This document shows positions 5,370 to 30,582 of a DNA stretch of 34,488 nucleotides, in pieces. Within the stretch, counting starts at the first letter, position 1. Each line of letters opens with the position of its first letter. The notes under the pieces are model-generated. The model had not been told where the DNA came from. It saw only the letters and a program-made list of their open reading frames with translations, and did not search any database. Both the position numbers and the translations under genes were made by a program. Source of the stretch: Myxococcaceae bacterium (GTDB taxonomy: Bacteria > Myxococcota > Myxococcia > Myxococcales > Myxococcaceae); assembly GCA_003818285.1 (NCBI GenBank), contig RPRB01000032.1:1-34488 (forward strand), given 5' to 3'.

Positions 5370-6344
5370 ATGGCTGATCCGGCGTGGAGCCTTCCCCTCT
5401 GCATTCGCTGGGATGAGGAGCTGTCGCTGCTGACCGGCGACGGCGCCCTCCCCGGCTGCCCGCCGCCCGCGCCCGGCATGTCGGTGGCGGTTGCGCTCGG
5501 CGTCGATGCGGGCACCGCCCGTGCGCTCGATGCCCGCGCGCGCCGGGGCGGCGGGGTGGAATTCGTCCGCACGGCGCCCGGTCCTGCCGGCACGCCGCGC
5601 TGGCTTCGGGTGGGGATGGAGACCACCGGAAGCGCGGTGGAGGCACGGGTGCACGACGTCGGGGCGCTCCTCGAGGGCGCGCCGCCGCTGCAGATCTCCC
5701 GGCTGTCCAGCTCGCTGAGCCACGAGCTCCGCAACCCGCTCTCCAGCGTCAAGATGGCCGTGCAGACGCTCGCCCGGAACGAGGGCCTCTCGGCGCGCGA
5801 CCAGCGCCGGCTCACCATCGCCCTCCGGGAGATCCGCACCCTCGAGCGGATGCTCTGGATGTTCAGCGAGTATGGCCGCGAGGCACCGCTCTCGGTGGAG
5901 ACCTGGTCGCTCCCGGACCTGATCCAGGAGTCCAGCGGCCTCATCGAGCATGATCTCGCCGAGCGCAGCATCCGCCTCGAGCTGGTGGGCGCCGAGGGAC
6001 TGCCCCACGTGCGCTCCGACGGCGTTCGCCTTCGTCCGGTCCTGGCCCAGCTGCTGCTCAACGTGGCCGCGAGCCTCGGCGAGGGGCAGCCGCTGCTGGT
6101 CACCCTGCGGGGCTCGGAGCGGGGGGTGGAGGTCGAGCTGCTCGACGAGCATGCCGCCCTCGAGCCCGGCGATCAGGAGCGGGTGTTCGAGCCCTTCGGC
6201 TCCCGTCTGGCGCGGGGGGCAGGCCTGTCCCTGGCCGCGCTCCGCCGGGTGCTCCAGCAACAGGGAGGAGAGGTCACCGCCGTGGCCGTCCCACCGCCTG
6301 CCCGCGGCGTCTTCTTTCGCCTCGACTTCGCGAGGGCTGCCTGA
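5370..6344 (+). CDS. Cytosolic histidine kinase with divergent ATP-binding domain
   Basis: About 324 residues, no membrane segment. Residues 1-105 form an unrecognised N-terminal sensor region. A HisKA dimerisation domain follows with SHELRNPLSSVK, His118 being the phosphoacceptor. The ATPase half is present but divergent: the N-box is LLLNVAAS (Asn231), the usual DxGxG lid motif is replaced by DEHAAL (259-264), VFEPFGS remains, and the G2 box is GAGLSLA (283-289). Start: ATG 5370 gives a compact protein; ATG 5337 upstream is in frame but would add only eleven unremarkable residues. The stop is 2 bases before the sigma-54 activator that follows, its obvious partner. The gene is divergent from the amidohydrolase-like gene across a 74-base gap that must hold both promoters. 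ATP binding and kinase activity may be weak. Confidence 0.86.
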   Translation: MADPAWSLPLCIRWDEELSLLTGDGALPGCPPPAPGMSVAVALGVDAGTARALDARARRGGGVEFVRTAPGPAGTPRWLRVGMETTGSAVEARVHDVGALLEGAPPLQISRLSSSLSHELRNPLSSVKMAVQTLARNEGLSARDQRRLTIALREIRTLERMLWMFSEYGREAPLSVETWSLPDLIQESSGLIEHDLAERSIRLELVGAEGLPHVRSDGVRLRPVLAQLLLNVAASLGEGQPLLVTLRGSERGVEVELLDEHAALEPGDQERVFEPFGSRLARGAGLSLAALRRVLQQQGGEVTAVAVPPPARGVFFRLDFARAA

Positions 6345-6346
6345 CC

Positions 6347-7768
6347 ATGGACACGCTCCTCCTCGTCGACGACGACGTCTCGCTGCTCGAGTCGCTCACC
6401 CTCCATTTCGAGGACGCGGAGAGGGACGGGCAGCCGCGGTTCCAGGTGGTCACCGCGACCACCGCGGCTGCGGGACTGCAGAAGGCGCGAGAGTCCCCCC
6501 CGTCGCTGGTGGTGCTGGACATGATGCTCCCCGACCGGAGCGGCCTGGACCTCATCGAGGAGATGAAGTCCGTCTGCGGCGACGCGCCCATCGTCCTCGT
6601 CACGGCGTACCACGACATGGAGAGCACCATCCGCGCGATGAAGCTCGGGGCGTTCGACTACATCCACAAGCCGTTCTCCGATCCCGCCGCGCTGGACCTG
6701 GTCATCAACCGCGCCCTCAGCGTCCGCCAGCTCAGCCGCCGCGCGGCGACCGCGGAGCTCGACACCACCGCGCCCGCCCGCCTGGGAGACCTGGTGGGCC
6801 AGACGCCGGTGATGCAGAAGCTGGTGAAGGAGATCGGCAAGGTGGCCGCTGCCCCCCGGGCCACGGTGCTCATCACCGGCGAGTCGGGGACCGGCAAGGA
6901 GCTGGTGGCCCGGGTCATCCACAACTACTCGTTCGACGACCCGCGGCCGTTCGTGGGCATCAACTGCTCGGCCATCGTCGAGACCCTGCTCGAGTCCGAG
7001 CTGTTCGGGCACGAGCGCGGCGCCTTCACCGGCGCCGCTACGAGCAAGCCCGGCAAGTTCGAGGTGGCCGACGACGGGACCGTCTTCCTCGACGAGATCG
7101 GCGACCTCTCGCCCCAGCTGCAGGGCAAGCTGCTTCGCGTCCTCCAGGAACGGGAGTTCGAGCGGGTGGGCGGCACCAAGCGCGTCACGCTCCAGGCCAG
7201 GGTCATCGCCGCCACCCACCGCGACCTCACCGAGGAGGTGAAGACCGGCCGCTTCCGCGAGGACCTCTATCAGCGGCTCCAGGTCATCGCCCTCCACGTG
7301 CCGCCGCTCCGCGAACGCCGGGAGGACATCCCGCTGCTGGTGAAGAGCCTCCTGGAGCGAATCAATGGCCGGGTCCACAAGCGGGTGACCCGCGTGCCCC
7401 CGGAGGTGATGGAGGCGCTGGTGCGGCTCCCGTGGAGGGGGAACGTGCGGGAGCTGGAGAACGTCCTCACCCGGGCCATCGTCCTGTCGCCCGGCGAGGT
7501 GCTCCTGGCGGAGAGCCTTCCTCGGGCCGAGGTCCCCGCGCCCGGCGAGCAGAGCGACGCCCTGAGCTGGCTCGCGCCCGCGGACGGTCCGCTGCCCACC
7601 CTCGAGGAGGCCGAACGGCAGCTCATCGAGCGGGCGCTCGTGCTGACCCGCGGGCACAAGGGCCGGGCCTGTCAGATGCTCGGGATCAGCCGACCCACCC
7701 TCGAGCGCAAGCTCGCCAAGTACGGGGCTGCACGTTCCGTGAAGCCTCCCCTGAAGACTGTCAGCTGA
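6347..7768 (+). CDS. NtrC-family sigma-54-dependent response regulator
   Basis: 473 residues in three domains. The receiver domain (1-125) has acidic residues DDD (8-10), phosphoacceptor Asp58 in VVLDMMLPD and Lys108 in IHKPF. The central AAA+ domain (about 147-385) has Walker A GESGTGKE (178-185), the sigma-54 contact loop GAFTGA (225-230), Walker B VFLDEIGD and an arginine finger region (GRFREDLYQRL). A Fis-type helix-turn-helix follows (about 430-462; GRACQMLGISRPTLERKLAKYG). It remodels RNA polymerase-sigma-54 closed complexes at its target promoters. Start ATG 6347 lies two bases after the histidine kinase stop, so the two are co-translated and should form one phosphorelay. The target genes are not visible. 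It ends just before the Crp-type promoter region. Confidence 0.96.
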   Translation: MDTLLLVDDDVSLLESLTLHFEDAERDGQPRFQVVTATTAAAGLQKARESPPSLVVLDMMLPDRSGLDLIEEMKSVCGDAPIVLVTAYHDMESTIRAMKLGAFDYIHKPFSDPAALDLVINRALSVRQLSRRAATAELDTTAPARLGDLVGQTPVMQKLVKEIGKVAAAPRATVLITGESGTGKELVARVIHNYSFDDPRPFVGINCSAIVETLLESELFGHERGAFTGAATSKPGKFEVADDGTVFLDEIGDLSPQLQGKLLRVLQEREFERVGGTKRVTLQARVIAATHRDLTEEVKTGRFREDLYQRLQVIALHVPPLRERREDIPLLVKSLLERINGRVHKRVTRVPPEVMEALVRLPWRGNVRELENVLTRAIVLSPGEVLLAESLPRAEVPAPGEQSDALSWLAPADGPLPTLEEAERQLIERALVLTRGHKGRACQMLGISRPTLERKLAKYGAARSVKPPLKTVS

Positions 7769-15490: not shown

Positions 15491-16279
15491 CTACTTCTTC
15501 CCCTTCGGCGGCGGCGATTTCTTCAGTCCTGCCAGGCCCTTCTGGGCCAGCTTGGCCTCGGGCGCCTTCGGGTAATCCTTGACGACCTGCTCGTAGGCGA
15601 GCCGGGCGGCTTCGGGGTTCTTCAGCCGGGCGAAGCAGTCGCCGCTCCGCACGTAGGCCAGCGGCACGGACTTCGACTTGCCGAAGCTCTTGATCAGCTG
15701 TCCGTACTCCGGCAGCGCGTCGGGGCAGTTGTCCTGCGCGTAGTACGACTCGGCCAGCGCGAAGTGTGCGTCCCCGGCCAGATCGTCCTTGGGCCACTTC
15801 CGGATGAAGTCCTGGTAGAGGACCCGGGCGGTCTGAAGGTCACCCGACTTCGCCTTGCTCTGGGCGAGGGCAAAGAACTCCTTCTTGTCGGTGGGCCGCT
15901 GCACGTCGTCCCCCGACTTCTTGTCCACCGCCGCCGCCCGGTCCTGGAGCGCGTCGAGGTTGTGGGTGTAGGCCTCGACCTGTCCCCGGAGCACCGCGAG
16001 GTCCTCGATCACCTTCTGCAGCTGGACGCTGGTGTCGGCCCCGCTCCTCCGCGAGGCCTGGTCGAGCGAGTCGAGCGCCTTGGTGACCTCGGCGATCTTC
16101 TGGTCGATGCGCGGGAGCTGCTGGTCCACCTTGTCCGCCATCGCCTTCTGCTCGGTGCGGAGATCCTTGTCCAGCTTGTCCACCCGCGTCTCGAGGTTCT
16201 TCCCCGCCTCGGACGAGTAGAAGCAGCCTCCGAGGGCGAGGACTGCCCCGATGGAGAGCGCGGCGCGTGCGACCCGCAT
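15491..16279 (-). CDS. CpoB/YbgF-like TPR lipoprotein
   Basis: 262 residues. A lipoprotein signal ends at LGGC (Cys19). It is followed by a long coiled-coil segment rich in Lys/Asp/Gln (about 26-120) and a TPR domain (about 130-255; FFALAQSKAKSGDLQTARVLY, HFALAESYYAQDNCPDALPEY). This architecture is that of CpoB (YbgF), which in other bacteria links the Tol-Pal system to PBP1B-dependent cell-wall synthesis during division. The usual protein is soluble and periplasmic; here it appears lipid-anchored. Its ATG directly abuts the TAG stop of the OmpA-domain gene upstream, so the two are co-translated. tolQ, tolR, tolA and tolB are not in this window. Confidence 0.85.
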   Translation of the reverse strand: MRVARAALSIGAVLALGGCFYSSEAGKNLETRVDKLDKDLRTEQKAMADKVDQQLPRIDQKIAEVTKALDSLDQASRRSGADTSVQLQKVIEDLAVLRGQVEAYTHNLDALQDRAAAVDKKSGDDVQRPTDKKEFFALAQSKAKSGDLQTARVLYQDFIRKWPKDDLAGDAHFALAESYYAQDNCPDALPEYGQLIKSFGKSKSVPLAYVRSGDCFARLKNPEAARLAYEQVVKDYPKAPEAKLAQKGLAGLKKSPPPKGKK

Positions 16280-17029
16280 CTAGTGGCGGAACTCCACCCG
16301 CCGGTTCGCGGCCCAGGCGTCCTCGTTGTGCCCGTCGACCGTCGGCCGGTTCTCCCCGTAACCCACGGTGTCCACCTTGGCCGGTGCCACCCCGAGGTCC
16401 ACCAGGTACTTCTTCACGCTCGCCGCCCGGCGCTGGGAGAGGTGGAGGTTGTACTCCTCGGTGCCCCGCTCGTCGGCGTGGCCCTCGAGGACGATCTTCT
16501 TCACGGTGCCCTTCTTGATGCAGTCGGACAGGTCGTTGAGCTGGGTCCGGGCCTCGGGGGTCAGCGCGCTGTCATTGAAGCCGAAGCGGATCGGCGTCCA
16601 GTTGCACTTGTCGATGGCGGCGGCCTTGGCGCAGACGCCGGCCTGGCAGGTCTCGCCCGTGCCGCAGTCAGCGTCCGCGGCGCAGGTGTTGGGGACGCAC
16701 TGGTTGTTCTTGCACCGGGCACCGGGTCCGCAGTCGCCGTCCGCGGTGCAGGCCCTCGGCGTGCACTTGCCGTTGGCGCAGCTGGAGCCCGCGGGGCAGT
16801 TCTGATCGGTGGTGCACTCGGGCTTGGGGGTGCACTTGTTGCCCTGGCACACGAACCCGTCCTTGCAGTTCGCGTCGGTGGCGCACTCCTGGCATTGCCC
16901 GTTGACGCAGACTTCGTTGTGCGACTTGCACTGCTCGTCCGAATCGCACTTCGGATACGTGGGAGGACATCCGGTGAGAACCGCAACCCCCAGGACTCCC
17001 AGCGCCAGCACACCGAAACGGCGGGACAT
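16280..17029 (-). CDS. Pal/OmpA-type lipoprotein with five cysteine-rich repeats
   Basis: 249 residues. The lipoprotein signal ends at LTGC (Cys21). Next come five tandem cysteine-rich modules of about 20 residues (roughly 27-132), each of the form C-x4-5-C-x5-C-x4-C, for example CATDANCKDGFVCQGNKC. The last 110 residues are an OmpA C-terminal peptidoglycan-binding domain with GHADERGTEEYNLHLSQRRA and GYGENRP...NRRVEF. Pal anchors the outer membrane to peptidoglycan; the cysteine repeats are an unusual insertion and should form disulfides in the periplasm. Start ATG 17029 has an excellent ribosome binding site (GGAGGAG, 17035-17041); a GTG two codons upstream would overlap that site. It is followed without gap by the CpoB-like gene. 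Confidence 0.9.
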   Translation of the reverse strand: MSRRFGVLALGVLGVAVLTGCPPTYPKCDSDEQCKSHNEVCVNGQCQECATDANCKDGFVCQGNKCTPKPECTTDQNCPAGSSCANGKCTPRACTADGDCGPGARCKNNQCVPNTCAADADCGTGETCQAGVCAKAAAIDKCNWTPIRFGFNDSALTPEARTQLNDLSDCIKKGTVKKIVLEGHADERGTEEYNLHLSQRRAASVKKYLVDLGVAPAKVDTVGYGENRPTVDGHNEDAWAANRRVEFRH

Positions 17030-17083
17030 GCGCACTCCTCCAAAGGTGGCCGCGTGCCCTGGGCGGCCCGATCCCTGTTGCCC

Positions 17084-17185: not shown

Positions 17186-18658
<1,473 letters not shown>

Positions 18659-19548: not shown

Positions 19549-20358
19549 CTATTCACCGAACGAGTCGGACGGAGGCTCCGGCTCGCCGGGGAGGCGGAAC
19601 CGGGCCCAGACCGGCGCGTGGTCCGACGGCTGTGGACCCTTCCGTGCCTCCCGATCGATGCCCGCCGCCTGCAGCGCGGTTGCGAGCGGTCCGGTGGCGT
19701 AGATGTGGTCCAGCCTCAGGCCCCGGTTTTTCTGGAAGCCGAGCATCCGGTAGTCCCACCAGCTGTAGCGGCCCGGCTCGGGGTGGAGCCGCCGGAAGGT
19801 GTCCTCGACCCCGAACTCCACCGCTCGCTTCAGCGCCGCCCGTTCCGGGAGCGAGAAGAGCGTCTGGCCCTCCCAGAGGCGAGGGTCCCAGACGTCCCGC
19901 TCCTCCGGTGCCACGTTGAAGTCGCCGCACACGGTGAGCGGCTGATCGGGCCGGTGCCGCACGTCGAGCCAGCGGCGAAGCCGGCCGTACCATTCGAGCT
20001 TCTGCTGGTACGCGGGTGAGCCGACCGCTTGCCCGTTGGGCGCGTACACCGAGGTCACCCGGACGCCCGCCACCGTGGCGCTCAGCACTCGGGCGGCGTC
20101 GTCGTCCTCGCCGTCCAGGAAGCCCCGCTCGACGCGCTCGGGCTCGTTCCGGGCGAGGATCGCCACCCCGTTGTAGCTCTTCTGGCCGAACAGCGCCGGG
20201 TGGTAGCCGAGCGCCCGGACCTGGTCGGACGGGAACTGCTCGTCGGTGCACTTCAATTCCTGAAGACAGACGACGTCCGGGCGCCGGGCCTCGAGCCAGC
20301 CGAGGAGCCGGTCGGTCCGGGCGCGCACCGAGTTGATGTTCCAGCTGGCGACGAGCAC
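19549..20358 (-). CDS. xthA: Exodeoxyribonuclease III (AP endonuclease, XthA/ExoA-like)
   Basis: 269 residues, the usual length. The exonuclease-endonuclease-phosphatase fold motifs appear in order: ASWNINSVRAR (4-14), the metal-binding Glu34 in CLQELK, SVYAPNGQ, GDFNVAPEERDVWDP, SWWDYR, LRLDHIYATGPL and the catalytic SDHAPV near the C-terminus. It cleaves DNA at abasic sites and removes 3' blocking groups in base-excision repair. GTG 20356-20358 puts the first conserved Asn seven residues from the start, as in relatives; the frame continues upstream antisense to the TPR gene and I do not use it. It is divergent from the TPR lipoprotein across 183 bases. Confidence 0.95.
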   Translation of the reverse strand: MLVASWNINSVRARTDRLLGWLEARRPDVVCLQELKCTDEQFPSDQVRALGYHPALFGQKSYNGVAILARNEPERVERGFLDGEDDDAARVLSATVAGVRVTSVYAPNGQAVGSPAYQQKLEWYGRLRRWLDVRHRPDQPLTVCGDFNVAPEERDVWDPRLWEGQTLFSLPERAALKRAVEFGVEDTFRRLHPEPGRYSWWDYRMLGFQKNRGLRLDHIYATGPLATALQAAGIDREARKGPQPSDHAPVWARFRLPGEPEPPSDSFGE

Positions 20359-20477
20359 GGTGGGGCCCGGTACCGTCGCACAGGCGGGGCGGCTGCGCAC
20401 CACCAGGTCGAGGGCCCTCGCTGACACGCGCGCGGGCGGCTGGCCGCGCCCGGGACCGTTCTCCCTGGGTTCCCCGA

Positions 20478-20492
20478 TGGCACGGCGGGCGC
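20478..20492 (+). promoter_or_regulatory. Sigma-54 (-24/-12) promoter candidate of the TPR lipoprotein gene
   Basis: TGGCACG (20478-20484) matches the -24 element perfectly. Its GG (20479-20480) and the downstream GC (20491-20492, in GCGCA) are separated by exactly 10 bases, as the -24/-12 rule demands; the two T residues of the usual TTGC are missing. It is intergenic and points at the ATG 20542, with a start near 20504. In DNA this GC-rich a chance match is possible. Confidence 0.45.
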
Positions 20493-20541
20493 AGTGGGAA
20501 CTCCCGAGGGACCACCCGAGGTCCCGATGAGGAGCTCGTCG

Positions 20542-21462
20542 ATGTCGAAGCATCTGCTGGCCGTTCCGCTCGCCGCCGCACTGGTGGTGGGCTGTCAGAA
20601 GTCCCCCGTGCCGTCGCCGCCCGTGTCCCGCGTGCAGGCGCCGGTTCCCGCCGCCACGCCGGCACCCGCGCCGGCGATCGCCCAGGCGCCGAAGCCGACC
20701 GGCGCCCCGGTCGATGCCCTGGCGCTGCCCCGCTCGGGCCCGCCCGGCGTGGACCACCTCGCGCGGGCGGAGAAGCTGCGCGACGACGGCGACACCGCCG
20801 GTGCTCTGGTCGAGGCACGCCGGGCCCTCGCCGACGACGGGGAGGACGTCGACGCGCTCGCGCTCATCGCCCGGCTGGCGCGCGCCTCCCGGCAGCTGAC
20901 CCTCGCCGCCGAGGCCTACGAGAGGCTGGGGCGCATCGACCCCGAGGACACGGTCCCCCTGGTGCAGGCGGCGCGGATGCGCCTGGTCTCCGGGAACGTC
21001 GAGGCCGCCGAGGCGCTGGCCCGCTCGGCGGTGGGCCGGGACGAGGGGAACGTCGAGGCCTGGCAGGCGCTCGGCCGCGCCCAGCTGAGCTCCGGGAACC
21101 TCGCCGGAGCCATCCAGACCCTCGAGCAGGCTCGCACCATCGACCCCTCGCACGGGTGGGTGCTGAACAATCTCGGCTTCGCCTACCTCCGGGCCAGCCG
21201 CAACCCGGAGGCGCTGGAGGTGCTCGAGCGCTCGGCCGAGCTGCTCCCCGAGGCCGCGGTGGTGCACAACAACCTCGGGGTCGCCCGGGAGCGCACCGGT
21301 GACCTGGACGGCGCGCGGGAGGCCTACGCCCGCTCGGCGCTGCTCGCTCCGAAGTACGTGAAGGCGCGGGTGAACGGCGAGCGCACCGCGATGCTCCGCT
21401 CGGCACCCGACGCCGGGGTCGAGGAGACGCACGTGCCCGAGGCCGATGACGGCGAGGAGTAG
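20542..21462 (+). CDS. TPR-repeat lipoprotein
   Basis: About 306 residues. Signal MSKHLLAVPLAAALVVGC with lipobox cysteine 18, then a Pro/Ala-rich linker (about 20-62). At least five consecutive tetratricopeptide repeats follow (about 72-290); clear ones include AWQALGRAQLSSGNLAGAIQ and VVHNNLGVARERTGDLDGAR. The tail is acidic. TPR lipoproteins of this type act as protein-binding scaffolds, such as in secretion, pilus or cell-wall assemblies; the partner is unknown here. Start ATG 20542 is preceded by AGGAG at 7 bases; ATG 20527 is in frame but would contain that site. It is preceded by a sigma-54-type promoter candidate and followed by a large hairpin before the penicillin-binding protein gene. 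Confidence 0.88.
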   Translation: MSKHLLAVPLAAALVVGCQKSPVPSPPVSRVQAPVPAATPAPAPAIAQAPKPTGAPVDALALPRSGPPGVDHLARAEKLRDDGDTAGALVEARRALADDGEDVDALALIARLARASRQLTLAAEAYERLGRIDPEDTVPLVQAARMRLVSGNVEAAEALARSAVGRDEGNVEAWQALGRAQLSSGNLAGAIQTLEQARTIDPSHGWVLNNLGFAYLRASRNPEALEVLERSAELLPEAAVVHNNLGVARERTGDLDGAREAYARSALLAPKYVKARVNGERTAMLRSAPDAGVEETHVPEADDGEE

Positions 21463-21565: not shown

Positions 21566-24094
21566 ATGGCCCGCCGCACCTCTCGACCGTCCCTCCTCCG
21601 CCGGCTCCTCCTGGTCCTCGGCGCGCTCGTGCTCGCGCTGGTCGGCACCGTGGTCGGGGTCTTCCTCTGGTTCAACCGGGGGCTGCCGTCCGTGGAGGCG
21701 CTGCGCGACTACCGGCCGCCCCAGGTCACGAAGGTCACCTGCGCCGACGGCAAGGTCTGCGCGGAGTACTTCCTCGAGCGGCGCACGCTGGTGGACGCGG
21801 CGACGCTTCCCGCACACGTGCGCAACGCCTTCCTCGCCGCGGAGGACGCGGACTTCTACCGGCATGAGGGGCTGGACTACGTCGGCATGGTCCGCGCCGG
21901 CATCAAGGCGCTCCTTCCGGGCGGGCACCTCACCGGCGCCTCCACCATCACCCAGCAGGCCTGCCGAAATCTCTTGTTGTCCCAGGAGCGCAAGCTGAGC
22001 CGGAAGATCCGCGAGTGGATCCTCACCCCGCGGATGGAGCGCGCGCTGACCAAGGATCAGATCCTCAACCTGTACCTGAACCAGATCTACTTCGGGCACA
22101 ACCGCTACGGGGTGGAGGAGGCGGCGCTCTACTACTTCGGCAAGCACGCCTCGGGGCTGAGCGTCGCCGAGGCAGCCATGCTCGCCGGGGTCGTCCAGCA
22201 GCCGGAGCGCATCAACCCCGTCACCAGCATGACCCGGGCGAAGGGGCGGCAGACCTATGTCCTGGGGCAGATGCTGAAGCACGGGCTGCTCGCCGCCCGC
22301 GAGCATGACGCCGCGCTGAAGGCGGAGGTGGTGCTCGGGCCCCGGCCGGCGCCGCCGGTGGGCCCGTACTACGTCGAGGAGATCCGCCGGATGCTGGTGG
22401 CGCGTTACGGGGACACGGCGGTCCTCACCAGCGGGATGCGGGTGGAGATCGCCATGGAGCCGAAGCTCCAGGCGCTCGCCGATACGGCGCTCCGCGAGGG
22501 GCTGGAGACGCTCGACCGGAGGATGGGGTACCAGGGCGCGCTGGGAGAGCTGGAGGGAAAGCGATTCGCCCAGCTCCGGACCTTGCTGGAGAAGCGCATC
22601 GCCGACACGGGCCGCCGCAGCCAGGAAGGAGCGCTCCTGGTGGACCTGTCCCGCCTCGCCCAGCCGAAGCAGACCGCGGCCGACGACGAGGGCGCGGAGG
22701 AGCGGCCGGAGACCAGCGCCGAGGGCGAGGCCGCGCCCACCTCGGACGAGGTCCTCGTCCGGGCGGTCCCGCTCGTGCCACTCAAGGAGGGGCTGCGCCT
22801 CGGGGGCTACGTCACCCAGGTGGACGATTCCCGGAAGACGGCCACGCTCGACTTCGTGGGCCGCCAGGGGATCCTCGTCTTCTCCACCGTCGCCTGGGCG
22901 CGGCCCCGCGGCGTGGGCAAGTGGACCCAGGCGCCGGCCAAGCTCTCCGACGTCCTGAAGCCGGGCCAGCTGGTACGGGCGCGCGTCCTCTCGGTGCCCC
23001 CGGCCGGCAAGCCGCTCGAGGTGACGCTGGACCAGGTGCCCGAGGTGCAGGGAGCGCTGACGGTCATCGACCCCGCCACGCGGCGGGTCCTGGCGCTCAG
23101 CGGGGGCTACGACTTCGCGCGCTCGTCGTTCAACCGCGCCACCCAGGCCCACCGGCAGCCCGGCTCGGCGTTCAAGCCCTTCCTCTACGCGGCGGCGCTG
23201 CAGAGCCAGAAGTTCACCCCGGTCTCGGTGCTCAACGATGCGCCGGAGGCGGTGCGCGATCCCTGGACCGGGAAGGTGTGGAAGCCGCACAACTACGAGC
23301 GGAGCGGGTTCGAGGGCCCCATGACGCTGCGGCAGGCGCTGACCAAGTCCAAGAACACGGTGTCCGTCCGGCTGATCGAGGCCATCACCCCGCAGGTGGC
23401 GATCGACTTCGCCCGGCGGGCCGGCATCCGCTCGGAGATGCCGGACAACCTGACCCTCGCGCTGGGCACGGGTGAGGTGACGGTGCTCGAGCTGGCCAAC
23501 GCCTACACGACGTTCGACACCCTGGGGAAATATGCCGATCCCGTGCTCCTGGTCCGGGTGACCGACGTGCGCGGCACGACGCTCGAGGAGCACCAGGCGG
23601 CACCGGAGGAGACCATCCCCCCGCCGGTGGCCTACGTCGCCACCTCCCTCATGCGGAGCGTGGTGGAGGAGGGAACGGCCGTGGCCGTCCGCGACCTCGG
23701 GCGGCCGGCGGCGGGGAAGACCGGGACCGCCAACGAGTACCGCGACGCCTGGTTCAGCGGCTACACGCCGGACCTGGTGGCCACCGCCTGGGTCGGGTTC
23801 GATGACCACTCGAGCCTCGGCACCGGGGAGACGGGCGGCCGGGCGGCGCTGCCCATCTGGCTCGGCTTCATGCGCGCGGCGCTCGATGGAAAGCCGGCGC
23901 GCGACTTCGAACTGCCGCCCGGTGTGCAGACGGTCCGGGTGGACCCGAGCTCGGGGCTGCTCGCCGGCGCGCACGTGCCGGGGCGGGCGGAGAGCTTCCT
24001 CGAAGGCACGGCGCCCACGGCCGAGGCGCCAAAGCCGGGCGAGGCCACCCCGGACCGCTTCCTCATGGAGGAGCCCGGCCGGGACCGCCTGTGA
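21566..24094 (+). CDS. Class A penicillin-binding protein (PBP1A-like)
   Basis: About 842 residues. One N-terminal membrane segment (about 12-36) is followed by a GT51 glycosyltransferase domain: AAEDADFYRHEG with catalytic Glu93, GASTITQQ, and RKLSRKIREWILTPRMERAL. A central OB-like region contains an acidic insertion (around 372-400). The transpeptidase domain has Ser534 in SAFK (534-537), SKN (595-597) and KTGT (718-721). All active-site motifs are intact, so it should both polymerise and cross-link peptidoglycan. Start ATG 21566 begins the basic, signal-anchor-like N-terminus; an upstream in-frame ATG (21446) would run through the hairpin and is rejected. Its stop overlaps the next gene (GTGA). 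It is the first gene of a four-gene overlapping operon ending in a histidine kinase. Confidence 0.95.
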   Translation: MARRTSRPSLLRRLLLVLGALVLALVGTVVGVFLWFNRGLPSVEALRDYRPPQVTKVTCADGKVCAEYFLERRTLVDAATLPAHVRNAFLAAEDADFYRHEGLDYVGMVRAGIKALLPGGHLTGASTITQQACRNLLLSQERKLSRKIREWILTPRMERALTKDQILNLYLNQIYFGHNRYGVEEAALYYFGKHASGLSVAEAAMLAGVVQQPERINPVTSMTRAKGRQTYVLGQMLKHGLLAAREHDAALKAEVVLGPRPAPPVGPYYVEEIRRMLVARYGDTAVLTSGMRVEIAMEPKLQALADTALREGLETLDRRMGYQGALGELEGKRFAQLRTLLEKRIADTGRRSQEGALLVDLSRLAQPKQTAADDEGAEERPETSAEGEAAPTSDEVLVRAVPLVPLKEGLRLGGYVTQVDDSRKTATLDFVGRQGILVFSTVAWARPRGVGKWTQAPAKLSDVLKPGQLVRARVLSVPPAGKPLEVTLDQVPEVQGALTVIDPATRRVLALSGGYDFARSSFNRATQAHRQPGSAFKPFLYAAALQSQKFTPVSVLNDAPEAVRDPWTGKVWKPHNYERSGFEGPMTLRQALTKSKNTVSVRLIEAITPQVAIDFARRAGIRSEMPDNLTLALGTGEVTVLELANAYTTFDTLGKYADPVLLVRVTDVRGTTLEEHQAAPEETIPPPVAYVATSLMRSVVEEGTAVAVRDLGRPAAGKTGTANEYRDAWFSGYTPDLVATAWVGFDDHSSLGTGETGGRAALPIWLGFMRAALDGKPARDFELPPGVQTVRVDPSSGLLAGAHVPGRAESFLEGTAPTAEAPKPGEATPDRFLMEEPGRDRL

Positions 24095-25311
24095 GCCCTG
24101 GACCGGCGCTCGTCGCCGCGCTCCTCGCCGCCGCTCCCGGTCCCTCCGCGCTGGAGGCGCTCTCCGAGCAGCTTCGGGCGCAGGTCGTCGCCGCGCATCC
24201 CGAGCCGCCGGTGGCGGTCGCCGTCGAGGCTTCCTCGGCGGCCCTGGCCGAGACCACCGCGGCGCTGGTCGCGACGCGCCTCGGGGAGTCGGGCCTTCCC
24301 GCGGTGGTCATCGGCTCCGGAGAGGACGCCGCGGCACGCGCGCGGAGCGCCGGAGCGCGTAGCCTCGTTCGCCTCCGGCTCCAGGTCGCGGCGGAGGTGC
24401 TGGGGGCCGGAGAGCTGCGCTCGGTGTGGCGGAACTTCTGGGCGGGCCGCGCCGCGCCGGAGACCGGTCCCACGCGGGTGCTCTCGGCGGCCGTCCCCGT
24501 CGACCGGGCGACCCAGCTGCTCGCCGCAGGACCCGGACAGGGCGCCGGGCTGGTGCTCGACCCGGCGCCGCTGGCCCGGCTCCCGGTGCGGACCGCGGCG
24601 CTGGCCACGGGCGACCTCGACGGCGACGGGCGGCCAGAGGTCGCGGTGCTCGCCGGTGGCGAGGTGTCGGTCCTGGACGGCGCGGGGTCGCTGCTCGCGC
24701 GACACTCGCTCCTGGACCTGCCTCCCGCGGCGACTCCGGCTCGCGAGCCGTTCGGCACCCTGTGCATCGGCGAGGGTCGCCTCGTCGTGGCCTGGGCGCG
24801 CGCGGACGGGTCACTGGCGCTCCGGCTCCAGGGAGGGCAGCTGGTGCGCGGCACGGGCGGGGGAGCGCCGACGCTCGGCTGCGGCGCGTCCGCCGAGCCC
24901 GCCAGCTTCGCTCCCGGCGCCGCGAGGCTCGTGCTCGCGCGCGGACCCGAGCGTGAGCCGTTGTGGGGCGGAGACGCGCGGGCCGGGCACCGCCTCCTGC
25001 TGCTCCCCGACGGGACGGCCCGCTGGTTCCAGCCCGGATCGGAGGTGCGCGTGCTCCGCGACGTCGGGGCCGGGGCCGCCCTCGTGTCCTGGCGGGGCGA
25101 GATGCGGGTGGCGGCGAGCAGCGCGGCCGCCGCGCCCGCCGAAGACCGGCTCCGGCTCGTGGGCCCGGGGCCGGAGGAGCCCTCGGTCGCGGTGCCGGGA
25201 CGCATCCTCCAGGTCTGCGGCGGCGCGCCGGGACCGGGACCGGCGCTGGTGCTCGGGCTGTGGACGGCGGACGGCGGGTCGGAGCTCCGCGTGGTGCGAG
25301 GGCCGCCGTGA
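24091..25311 (+). CDS. FG-GAP/VCBS-like repeat protein of unknown function
   Basis: 406 residues. A short hydrophobic N-terminus (about 5-15) may be a weak signal. Residues 20-130 form an alpha/beta domain without a family I recognise. A calcium-binding-type FG-GAP/VCBS motif, TGDLDGDGRPEVAVL, lies at about 173-187, and the rest is a series of short beta-strand units (LSVLDG, LLLLPDGTARWF, LVLGLWTADGG) suggesting a propeller-like fold. The start GTG overlaps the PBP stop by 4 bases (GTGA), and its own stop overlaps the following gene the same way, so translation is coupled. FG-GAP domains usually act outside the cytoplasm in binding roles; a periplasmic location is inferred. Confidence 0.72.
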   Translation: MSPGPALVAALLAAAPGPSALEALSEQLRAQVVAAHPEPPVAVAVEASSAALAETTAALVATRLGESGLPAVVIGSGEDAAARARSAGARSLVRLRLQVAAEVLGAGELRSVWRNFWAGRAAPETGPTRVLSAAVPVDRATQLLAAGPGQGAGLVLDPAPLARLPVRTAALATGDLDGDGRPEVAVLAGGEVSVLDGAGSLLARHSLLDLPPAATPAREPFGTLCIGEGRLVVAWARADGSLALRLQGGQLVRGTGGGAPTLGCGASAEPASFAPGAARLVLARGPEREPLWGGDARAGHRLLLLPDGTARWFQPGSEVRVLRDVGAGAALVSWRGEMRVAASSAAAAPAEDRLRLVGPGPEEPSVAVPGRILQVCGGAPGPGPALVLGLWTADGGSELRVVRGPP

Positions 25312-26657
25312 GGCGGGGAGCAATTCTGGTGCTCCTCGCGGCCGCGGCGCCTCTGGAGGCGCGGGCCGCGGCCCGGGCGCGGGACGGCGGGACGCTGCGC
25401 CTGGCGGTGCTCCCCGAGGTTCGCGCCGATCGCTGGGGGGAGACGCCGGAGGGGGCGGCCCTCCGGGAGCTCGTCGCCGCCCCGCTGTGCCGCGTGGAGG
25501 GGGGCGGGCGCGTGCAGCCGGTGCTGGCCAGTGTCCAGCGCACGGCCGACGGCGTCTCCGTCGTTCCCAGGCCGGGGGCCCGGTTCTCCTCCGGCGCGCC
25601 GCTCGGCACGGCCGAGCTGGCGCAGGCCTGGGCGCGGGCGGTGGAGCGGAGTCCGGTCGCCCGCGCCGCACTCGGGCCGGTGCGGGAGCTCGCGCCGACG
25701 CTGGAGCAGCAGTCGCGGGGGAAGGCCGCGGGACTTCTGCTCCCCCTGGCCCACCCCTGGCCGGACCTGGAGGTCAGCCTCTGTCACCCGGCGCTTGCGC
25801 CAGTGCTCGGTGACGGGGGGAGCGACGGCGTGGGGCCCTACGCCCCGGACGGCGCCGAGCGGGGCCGCGCCGTGCCCGCGTTCCCGGAGGGCCGGCCCCA
25901 CCCGGATGGATTCCTGGTCTCCACGCTGGCGCGCCGCGCGGCCCAGCGGGCGCTCGAGACCCGGAGCGCGCAGGTGCTGCTCGGGGACGGTGGGGAGGCG
26001 GCGGCTCCGGCGCTGTTCGCCACCTATCTCGTGTCGAGGCCCCAGGCGCGCCCGATGGTCTCGCTGCTCGAGACACGGCTGGATCGCCCGGCGCTGGTGC
26101 GGAGCTTCGTGGGCAGTCCGGCGGCGGCGATGCCGGGCCTCCTTCCGCCGTCGCTCGGCGGGCCCGAGCGGTCTGCGTCGGCCGGCGGAAGCCCGGGCCG
26201 TGGCTCGGGGACGGCGCTGCTCCTGTATGCAGCGGACCGGCCGGGGCAGCGAGCCGTGGCGCAGCGGCTCCAGATCCTCCTCCGGGACGCAGGAGTCTCG
26301 CTCAGGCTCGGCGCGCGCACCCCGGAGGCGCTGGACCGTGACTGGCGCGCCGGGCAGGGAGACCTCGCGCTCCGCTCGGTGCTTCTCCCGCCGGTGCCGG
26401 CGGCCGCGCTGGCGGTGGTGCTGGAGCTGGCCGGCGATCCGGGCGCGGGCCGGCGCGAGCTCGCGGGCCTCGGAGCTCTGGCCGACGAGCGGGAACGCGC
26501 GGCCCGGACGCGCGAGCGGGCGCTCCAGCTCGCGGGCGCCCTCCCCGTCGTGCCGCTGTACGTGGAGGGGCTCCGAGCACGCCTCGACCCGGCGCTGGTG
26601 GACGTGCGGCGGGACGCCTTCGGGCTCTGGACCCTCGACGACGCGTGGTGGCCCTGA
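25308..26657 (+). CDS. Degenerate family-5 solute-binding-protein-like protein
   Basis: About 449 residues. A signal peptide (about 1-22; GAILVLLAAAAPLEARAAA) predicts export. The segment LRELVAAPLCRVEGGGRVQP followed by a DGVSVVPRPGARFSSGAPLGTAELAQAW pattern follows the start of peptide/nickel-type SBP_bac_5 proteins (usually a 'lxPGvxFhdGtPltAeDV' pattern). The C-terminal RTRERALQLAGALPVVPLY also fits the family, which typically ends with a section listing the peptide-binding lobe. The middle is short and divergent, and no lipobox is present. No ABC permease or ATPase is nearby. It overlaps the preceding gene (GTGA) and the following histidine kinase (TGATG), so a ligand-sensing accessory to that kinase is plausible. 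Confidence 0.68.
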   Translation: MRRGAILVLLAAAAPLEARAAARARDGGTLRLAVLPEVRADRWGETPEGAALRELVAAPLCRVEGGGRVQPVLASVQRTADGVSVVPRPGARFSSGAPLGTAELAQAWARAVERSPVARAALGPVRELAPTLEQQSRGKAAGLLLPLAHPWPDLEVSLCHPALAPVLGDGGSDGVGPYAPDGAERGRAVPAFPEGRPHPDGFLVSTLARRAAQRALETRSAQVLLGDGGEAAAPALFATYLVSRPQARPMVSLLETRLDRPALVRSFVGSPAAAMPGLLPPSLGGPERSASAGGSPGRGSGTALLLYAADRPGQRAVAQRLQILLRDAGVSLRLGARTPEALDRDWRAGQGDLALRSVLLPPVPAAALAVVLELAGDPGAGRRELAGLGALADERERAARTRERALQLAGALPVVPLYVEGLRARLDPALVDVRRDAFGLWTLDDAWWP

Positions 26658-28327
26658 TGGCCGCGACCCGAGGGATGCGGCTCCGCACGCTCCTGCTCCT
26701 CGCCTTCGCCCTGCTGGCGCTCCTCCCCCTGGCGGTGACGGTGCCGCTCGCCTCGCGACGCATCGAGGAGACGTTCGCCCGCGAGTTGGCCGCCCGCGCC
26801 GACGCGGCCGCGACGCTCGGCTCCACCGAGCTGGACCGGCTCCGGGCCGAGGTGGAGCAGTCGGTGAGCGCCTGCGCCGCGGACCCTCTCACCGAGGCGG
26901 TGGCGCTGCAGCTGGAGTCCGGCCTGCCGCCCGCCGCGGACGCGATGCGCGGCGTGGCCGAGGGACGGCCGCTGACGGTCCTCACCCTCCGCGACGCCTC
27001 GGGAGTGACTCGCTCCAGCGCCTTCCTTCCGGCTCGGGTGGGCGACGTCGAGCCCGGACTCTCCACCGTCCGCACCGGCGAGGCCCCGGTGCTGGTTCCG
27101 GTCGAGGTGCAGAACGCCGAGGGCGTCCAGCTCCGGCCGGCCCTGGTGGCGGCCCGTCCGGTGGAGGCGGCGCGCGGCACGGCCATCCTCGTCGGGGGTC
27201 AGGTGCTCGACGAGGCCTGGGTCTCGCGCCTGGCCCGGCTCACCGCCGCGCGGGTCGAGCTGCAGGGGCCGGGGCTCGCGCCCGCGGCGGCCGGTACCGC
27301 CGAGGGGCGCACCGTGCGGCGCGCCCTCCCCCTCGGGCCCGCGGAGCTGACCCTCGGCGTGGGGAGCGCGGCGGTGGACGAGACGCGGGCCACGCTCCTG
27401 AAGGCGCTCGTCACCGCCGGGGCACTGGGTCTCGGTCTGGCGCTGATTGCCGGCTTCCTCTTCGCCCGGGGCATCACCCGCCCGGTGGAGGCGCTCACCG
27501 AGGGAGTCCGCTCGGTCGCGGGCGGCGCGCTCGACACCCGCGTGCCGGCCACGGGCAGCGGCGAGGTGCGGGTGCTGGTGGACGCCTTCAACCGGATGGC
27601 CGAGGACCTGGGTCACGCCACCCGGGCGCTGCGGGCCGCGGAGCAGGCGGCGGCCTGGGAGGGCGTGGCGCGCAGCCTGGCCCACGAGCTCCGCAATCCT
27701 CTAACCCCGCTCCAGATGTCGCTGGAGACGCTGCTCGCGGCCAGGAAGGCGCGAGACGGGCGCTTCGAGGCGCTGTTCGTCGAGAGCGCGCCAGCGATGC
27801 TCGAGGAGGTGGAGCGGCTGCGGCGCACCATCGACGCCTTCGCCCGCTTCGCCCGGCTCCCCGCGGCGCAGCTCGAGCCACTGGACCTCACCGCCTGGAC
27901 CGAGCAGGCGCTCGGTCTCGCCGGCGCTCGGCCGGGGGTCGCGCTCCGCTGGGAGCCGGGACCTCCGCTCGCCGTCCGGGCGGATCGGGATCAGCTGGCG
28001 CAGCTGCTCCACAACCTCCTCCGGAACGCCGAGGAGGCGATGCCTTCGGGCGGCCAGGTGACGGTGCGGACCCGGGGCGACGCAGACCGGGCGGTGCTGG
28101 AGGTGGAGGACACCGGCCCCGGCATCCCGGCCGACGCCCGGGCCCGGGTACTCGAGCCGGGAGTGACGACCAAGGCCAGCGGCACCGGCCTGGGGCTCGC
28201 GCTGGGAGCGCGCATCGCCCAGGGACACGGGGGCACCCTGGAGGTGGACACGGCGCCCGGCGGTGGCGCGCTGCTGAGGCTCCGGATTCCGCGGGAGGCA
28301 GCGGCGGGGGTGAGGCTCACTCCCTGA
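26657..28327 (+). CDS. Membrane histidine kinase, NtrY-like
   Basis: About 556 residues. Two membrane segments (about 10-30 and 248-270) flank a periplasmic sensor region of roughly 215 residues. A HAMP domain follows (about 270-322; FARGITRPVEALTEGV), then HisKA with AHELRNPLTPLQ (phosphoacceptor His343) and a HATPase domain with N-box LLRNAEEAM, G1 DTGPGIP and G2 GTGLGLALGARI. All kinase motifs are intact. HELRNPLTPLQ is typical of NtrY-type kinases. ATG 26657 shares one base with the stop of the solute-binding-like gene. No response regulator adjoins it. The 3' end overlaps the convergent gene by 11 bases (28317-28327). Confidence 0.93.
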   Translation: MAATRGMRLRTLLLLAFALLALLPLAVTVPLASRRIEETFARELAARADAAATLGSTELDRLRAEVEQSVSACAADPLTEAVALQLESGLPPAADAMRGVAEGRPLTVLTLRDASGVTRSSAFLPARVGDVEPGLSTVRTGEAPVLVPVEVQNAEGVQLRPALVAARPVEAARGTAILVGGQVLDEAWVSRLARLTAARVELQGPGLAPAAAGTAEGRTVRRALPLGPAELTLGVGSAAVDETRATLLKALVTAGALGLGLALIAGFLFARGITRPVEALTEGVRSVAGGALDTRVPATGSGEVRVLVDAFNRMAEDLGHATRALRAAEQAAAWEGVARSLAHELRNPLTPLQMSLETLLAARKARDGRFEALFVESAPAMLEEVERLRRTIDAFARFARLPAAQLEPLDLTAWTEQALGLAGARPGVALRWEPGPPLAVRADRDQLAQLLHNLLRNAEEAMPSGGQVTVRTRGDADRAVLEVEDTGPGIPADARARVLEPGVTTKASGTGLGLALGARIAQGHGGTLEVDTAPGGGALLRLRIPREAAAGVRLTP

Positions 28328-30231: not shown

Positions 30232-30582
30232 TCACTCGGTGGGGAGATCTGCGAGTGAAGGACCGGAGTGGTCGTGACGGCGGTCGAGGTACTTCTTGGC
30301 CGCGCGCTCCACGCGATCGCAGGCGGCGGCGATGGCGCGGTGAATCTCGTCGGACTGCTCGGTGACGTGGAGCGCGGGGTGACCGGGGACGTGCACGGTG
30401 ACCCGTGCCTCCTTGTCCATGCCGCCCTTGTTCTCGCCGGTGGTGTCGACCAGGTGCACCTCGACCTGGACGGCGGGTTCGCGTCCCAGCACCCGATCCA
30501 GCGCGCGGCCCAGATGGACCTCGCAGTACTCGCGGAGCGCGTCGCTGACCGGGATGTGAACGCCTCGTACCAGCACTTGCAT
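30232..30582 (-). CDS. Short ribosome hibernation factor (HPF/RaiA family)
   Basis: 116 residues. QVLVRGVHIPVSDALREYCE is the standard start of the S30AE fold, followed by strands VQVEVHLVDTTG and ARVTVHVPG and the helix SDEIHRAIAAACDRVERAAKKYLDR. Only the S30AE domain is present, so it is a short HPF/RaiA type without the C-terminal dimerisation domain of long HPF. Such proteins bind the 30S decoding region in slow growth and silence ribosomes. AGGAGG lies 8 bases before the ATG. It is divergent from the DUF2007 gene (46-base gap). Confidence 0.92.
   Translation of the reverse strand: MQVLVRGVHIPVSDALREYCEVHLGRALDRVLGREPAVQVEVHLVDTTGENKGGMDKEARVTVHVPGHPALHVTEQSDEIHRAIAAACDRVERAAKKYLDRRHDHSGPSLADLPTE

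Follow-up and report, generated by a model that had tools for sequence, protein, structure and literature searches.

A conserved myxobacterial operon links a PBP1A peptidoglycan synthase and two exported proteins to the sensor kinase CrdS

The CrdS-CrdA kinase-regulator pair of Myxococcus xanthus has been described together with Che3 (PMC3510030), and work on CrdS has so far concerned its chemistry and the timing of fruiting-body development. CrdS both phosphorylates and dephosphorylates CrdA (PMC3510030), and starvation is the published condition for its switch to kinase. The crdA gene (Mxan_5153) lies beside the che3 genes (MXAN_5144-5151), among whose products CheW3 has 145 aa and Mcp3B 605 aa. 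The CrdS-CrdA literature, Willett and Kirby (2011) aside, deals with developmental timing and not with a PBP1A operon, a sigma54 promoter or two exported proteins; it names neither the signal of CrdS nor the direct targets of CrdA.

Other described systems resemble parts of the operon found in the window analysed here (the whole stretch of 34,488 nucleotides from a Myxococcaceae bacterium, contig RPRB01000032.1). In Vibrio cholerae a transport-type solute-binding protein, CBP, is thought to control the membrane sensor kinase ChiS, which it represses (PMC5519180). By analogy, CBP-ChiS is the nearest working model for the operon, and it is a precedent for the statement in a preliminary description of this DNA that solute-binding folds can act as receptors for membrane kinases. 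However, CBP serves an ABC transporter, binds chitin oligosaccharides and is accompanied by no peptidoglycan synthase, whereas no transporter was recognised with the operon here. NtrYX of Rhodobacter sphaeroides likewise unites a membrane kinase and a sigma54-type regulator tied to envelope and peptidoglycan genes, with a similar H-box, and controls wall genes (PMC7240162). NtrYX, in contrast, comprises no PBP1A operon, and the assignment of the regulator in the window to NtrX or NtrC was rejected, as it falls below the NCBIfam cut-offs (NtrC, 452 of 558.6 bits; NtrX, 413.5 of 600).

LpqW of Mycobacterium has a role in cell-envelope synthesis. Its structure (2grv) displays a family-5-like fold without a transporter role; it concerns another envelope polymer, has no kinase and is one fold match among many. 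In Pseudomonas aeruginosa the TPR lipoprotein LpoP is paired with the class A synthase PBP1B (PMC7267771), a combination also seen in the window, although the synthase here is of the 1A type and TPR repeats are too generic for a claim of homology.

The operon in the window consists of genes for a TPR lipoprotein, PBP1A, a propeller protein, a solute-binding-like protein and CrdS, all on the forward strand, with crdA kept nearby. The class A peptidoglycan synthase (21566-24094) shares a GTGA overlap (24091-24094) with the gene of an exported FG-GAP protein (24091-25311), which overlaps in turn, again by GTGA (25308-25311), the gene of an exported family-5 solute-binding-like protein (25308-26657). 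The junction of the latter with the kinase gene (26657-28327, alternative in-frame GTG start at 26645) is formed by TGATG at 26655-26659. These are the four intact genes, overlapping at all three junctions, of the preliminary description, and its open reading frames and coordinates are borne out. The four-gene unit holds in its members but not in its start, since the TPR lipoprotein gene (20527-21462; start at 20527 or 20542, lipobox LVVGC), which ends about 100 bases ahead of the synthase gene, belongs in front; it was recognised by TPR families and by its position before the synthase gene in relatives.

The synthase is a complete class A PBP, as had been proposed, with the Pfam domains Transgly (6e-59), PCB_OB (3e-8) and Transpeptidase (8e-31) and readable SAFK, SKN and KTGT motifs. 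The GT51, OB and transpeptidase domains, together with a score over the cut-off for TIGR02074 (PBP_1a_fam, 550 bits), place it in the 1A type. Four proteins with a GT51 domain are encoded in the genome of the window. Class A PBPs number three in M. xanthus, which grows moderately more slowly when PBP1a1 alone is lost (PMC10475089). Since the M. xanthus operon synthase is encoded about 33 kb from crdA, it is probably PBP1a1, an assignment that relies in part on locus tags.

The solute-binding-like protein of the window matches SBP_bac_5 on its own at E 0.15, below the Pfam threshold. Its family-5 assignment, already given earlier, proved right for the protein family through the orthologues, 26 of 31 of which match SBP_bac_5 (E up to 0.1, best 9.6e-26), and through the predicted fold. 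The AlphaFold2 model (pLDDT 90.7, pTM 0.89) was compared by Foldseek and matched cluster-C solute-binding proteins (E about 1e-19, with query TM-scores as high as 0.70); an unrelated fold, which would have spoken against the earlier description, was thus not obtained. Lmo0135, YliB, PrgZ and MppA are among the sequence matches in the PDB. Compared with its solved relatives the protein is short, and most Myxococcaceae orthologues have a trimmed stretch between the strands of the first domain. Cys 61 and Cys 159 never vary in the Myxococcaceae-centred alignment, which suggests a disulfide between them; they are not kept in Anaeromyxobacteraceae. As previously stated, no ABC partner accompanies the protein: no transporter gene was recognised beside its gene in the window or in the inspected loci, and a distant partner is possible. 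Profile matches of the SBP_bac_5 type at L170-L172 do not lie in such an operon.

The FG-GAP protein, one repeat of which exceeds the Pfam cut-off, is modelled by AlphaFold2 (pLDDT 86.7) as an alpha/beta domain (residues ~20-146) followed by a beta propeller (~158-402). Foldseek matches include TolB and BamB, with low TM-scores. Homology to TolB was considered and not supported: there is no TolB_N match in Pfam, and the profile comparison was not significant, with a control scoring better. The likeness to TolB is one of architecture only.

The kinase has the HAMP-HisKA-HATPase_c composition in Pfam, in agreement with the intact membrane kinase reported before, and its periplasmic sensor domain spans about 220 residues. 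Its sensor motif SSGHLPxRxGDPD is kept as far as Anaeromyxobacteraceae. The M. xanthus orthologue (L114), read from the first ATG, comprises 578 aa and carries H371, E372, N375 and the N-box Asn 482, in addition to V365, R368, L369, I373, P376, P379 and I380, in exact register with CrdS of PMC3510030, where the purified form covers residues 346-578. As the length of 578 and the residues H371, E372, N375 and N482 agree with that numbering, the operon kinase is, by alignment, the CrdS orthologue.

The kinase had been described as lacking a response regulator, in an arrangement without a described counterpart. The kinase itself is no orphan and has been described: besides being the orthologue of M. 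xanthus CrdS, the kinase has its cognate regulator in the same window, at 17186-18658 (+), outside the region covered before. This crdA orthologue shares 67.7% identity with the M. xanthus protein beside che3 and contains a receiver with Asp53 (counted from the ATG at 17186), a sigma54-activating AAA+ domain and an HTH domain. Next to it lies, divergently and outside the operon, the crdB orthologue (16280-17035, -), encoding a Cys-rich OmpA-type lipoprotein (OmpA E 7e-23; 55.6% identity to the M. xanthus OmpA lipoprotein encoded next to crdA/che3). In M. xanthus the regulator gene diverges from a group of genes for an OmpA-type lipoprotein, a 145-aa CheW-like protein and a pair of large membrane-type proteins, of which one has 605 aa. 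Since residue numbering, Asp53 and these che3-type neighbours fit the published ones, the kinase-regulator pair is, judged from sequence and gene neighbourhood, CrdS-CrdA.

The two organisms differ in that che3-type genes adjoin crdA in M. xanthus, whereas in the window crdA adjoins crdB and no che3 genes were recognised beside it. The crdB orthologue and, after it, a YbgF/CpoB-like TPR gene occupy 15491-17035 on the minus strand; the latter stands at the place taken in M. xanthus by che3 genes, so that Che3 is not linked to crdA in the window. A second kinase/sigma54-regulator pair occupies 5703-7768 (+), with a kinase-like stretch at 5703-6341 and a receiver-AAA-Fis regulator gene at 6347-7768. 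Regulator matches of 43-54% downstream of the kinase in some genera were set aside as another, large protein that aligns without a receiver. It is represented at 12906-16616 of L070 and likewise in L080, L085 and L137: about 1240 aa, with an AAA-type N-terminus, a sigma54-activator-like C-terminus and no receiver, encoded on the opposite strand immediately 3' of the kinase gene.

The search for the gene order in relatives, proposed in the preliminary description, found it kept from Myxococcaceae to another class of Myxococcota. In 91 of 96 Myxococcaceae genomes the genes of the solute-binding-like and propeller proteins occur once each and side by side. The order PBP, propeller, solute-binding-like protein, kinase was examined in 19-kb stretches from 20 of the 91 and in 42 named loci, partly of the same genomes; it is kept wherever the contig shows it, mostly with 4-base overlaps, and the junction between the solute-binding-like and kinase genes is often the tightest. 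A phylum-wide profile search returned the same order in Anaeromyxobacteraceae and in families f7, f8 (kinase lost at contig ends), f17, f10 (another order of the class) and f11 (another class). The propeller gene was not detected at the locus of family f5 (L156); at that of f16 (L168) the solute-binding-like and kinase genes stand together, and PBP and propeller genes were not detected. Since Myxococcaceae, Anaeromyxobacteraceae and other families, as far as a second class, share the order, it is not due to chance and represents an old operon across Myxococcota.

The TPR gene precedes the PBP gene in most Myxococcaceae and in f7, f8, f10 and f11. In Anaeromyxobacteraceae the regulator gene lies directly upstream of the PBP gene, and at L158 the genes of the regulator, TPR protein, PBP, propeller protein, solute-binding-like protein and kinase form one row of six. 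A regulator orthologue passes in 89 of the 91 Myxococcaceae genomes with the solute-binding-like gene; the 5 genomes lacking that gene yielded none. A record titled Comamonas sp. KCTC 72670 (L113) contains the operon as in Myxococcus (same order, 39% identity of the solute-binding-like protein); its organism name is probably wrong.

A sigma54 -24/-12 promoter, TGGCACGGCGGGCGC, is predicted at 20478-20492 (+). It sits in the gap between the operon and a divergent exonuclease III-type gene (19549-20400, -; exonuclease/endonuclease/phosphatase family), whose position is kept in many Myxococcaceae. Sites were scored against TGGCAC-N5-TTGC over 10 positions, with GG and GC obligatory; the window copy attains 8 of 10, and stronger copies occur in relatives. 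TGGCACG-N4-YCGC or a near variant precedes the TPR gene; in Anaeromyxobacteraceae it precedes the PBP gene instead. Among 35 distinct stretches upstream of the TPR gene, which come from related genomes and so are not independent samples, 21 have a site of at least 9 of 10 and 28 one of at least 8. A site at 9 of 10 was met upstream of the inner genes once in 183 cases, and across all loci the background is 0.034 sites per kb and strand (about 0.01 expected per stretch). A sigma70 promoter scan found none. Downstream of the operon lies an AmiA-like gene (PF07313; 30966-31850, -), which together with a small gene (30232-30582) stays close to the operon in several Myxococcaceae.

In many Myxococcaceae a dyad like GTGTGGC-N6-GCCACAC is located 37-39 bases upstream of the sigma54 element. 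Noticed after the fact, the dyad with TGGCAC occurs 12 times in the 96 genomes, 11 of them by position at the TPR-gene promoter, and it is a candidate CrdA site. Since CrdA belongs to the sigma54 activators, the promoter is most naturally read as placing the operon under CrdS-CrdA control, and we infer autoregulation of this kind.

The most likely explanation of the locus is that the operon and CrdA constitute a self-regulating envelope feedback circuit with the middle proteins reporting the state of the wall to CrdS, because the genes of the exported proteins overlap those of the synthase and the kinase and stand behind a promoter of the type served by CrdA; we hold it with moderate confidence. 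The two exported proteins would be co-produced with the synthase. The solute-binding-like protein, alone or with the propeller protein, would contact the conserved periplasmic domain of CrdS, and this contact would adjust the kinase/phosphatase balance to the condition of the wall or PBP1A. CrdS would phosphorylate CrdA, and CrdA~P would open the sigma54 promoter, raising synthase and sensor together. The sensor roles suggested earlier for the middle proteins, namely recognition of peptidoglycan fragments and reporting to the kinase, may be correct; conservation and fold are compatible with them. Several facts count against the feedback circuit: starvation, rather than wall damage, is the published trigger of CrdS; crdA is located 8-100 kb upstream of the operon, on the same strand, in most Myxococcaceae; the promoter copy of the window is weaker, and the dyad is absent from the window; and M. 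xanthus without aPBPs is viable (PMC10475089). The starvation trigger can be reconciled with the circuit if CrdS follows a change in wall synthesis, the link being that wall synthesis would change on starvation and sporulation. It is also conceivable, as a tentative proposal, that the locus is an undescribed wall-surveillance relay, in which a class A PBP is co-produced with a repurposed solute-binding protein and a propeller protein that inform CrdS about wall synthesis and CrdA~P feeds back on this sigma54 operon, and that the developmental role in M. xanthus is a later use of an older, phylum-wide envelope loop.

In the main rival to the feedback circuit, the TPR lipoprotein and both middle proteins work with PBP1A, Lpo-like, as its activators, anchors or assembly factors, while CrdS senses something different through a periplasmic domain of its own and the shared transcript only keeps doses in step. 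A TPR lipoprotein beside a class A PBP does recall Pseudomonas LpoP, the propeller protein combines an alpha/beta domain with a propeller and finds the periplasmic scaffold proteins TolB and BamB among its fold matches, and CrdS carries its own, conserved sensor domain. Yet the f16 pair without detected PBP or propeller genes and the f5 locus without a detected propeller gene tie the solute-binding-like protein to the kinase, and the junction between the two is often the tightest; we consider this explanation rather unlikely. The solute-binding-like protein could instead receive food or prey signals in the form of peptides or muropeptides, with the kinase reporting nutrients and the link with PBP1A only readying wall growth. 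It is starvation that switches CrdS, family-5 proteins bind mostly peptides, and the murein-peptide binder MppA belongs to the best PDB matches; however, nickel or opine binders score at least as well as MppA, the protein is diverged and of reduced length, and the lack of recognised ABC transporter genes beside it also makes such a receptor improbable. That the genes are mere neighbours without a common function is very improbable: high-GC myxobacterial genomes are densely packed and synteny is common to close relatives, but the order survives between classes while the surroundings change, and the promoter class is the one served by the kinase's own regulator.

Through this operon the CrdS kinase acquires a connection to cell-wall state that can be tested. 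As crdS closes a conserved PBP1A operon that also has genes of two exported partner proteins and a sigma54 promoter, the signal of CrdS and the targets of CrdA become directly testable in a tractable organism. If the feedback circuit is true, myxobacterial development would be tied to the state of the cell wall, and a transport-type binding protein would have been taken over for wall surveillance.
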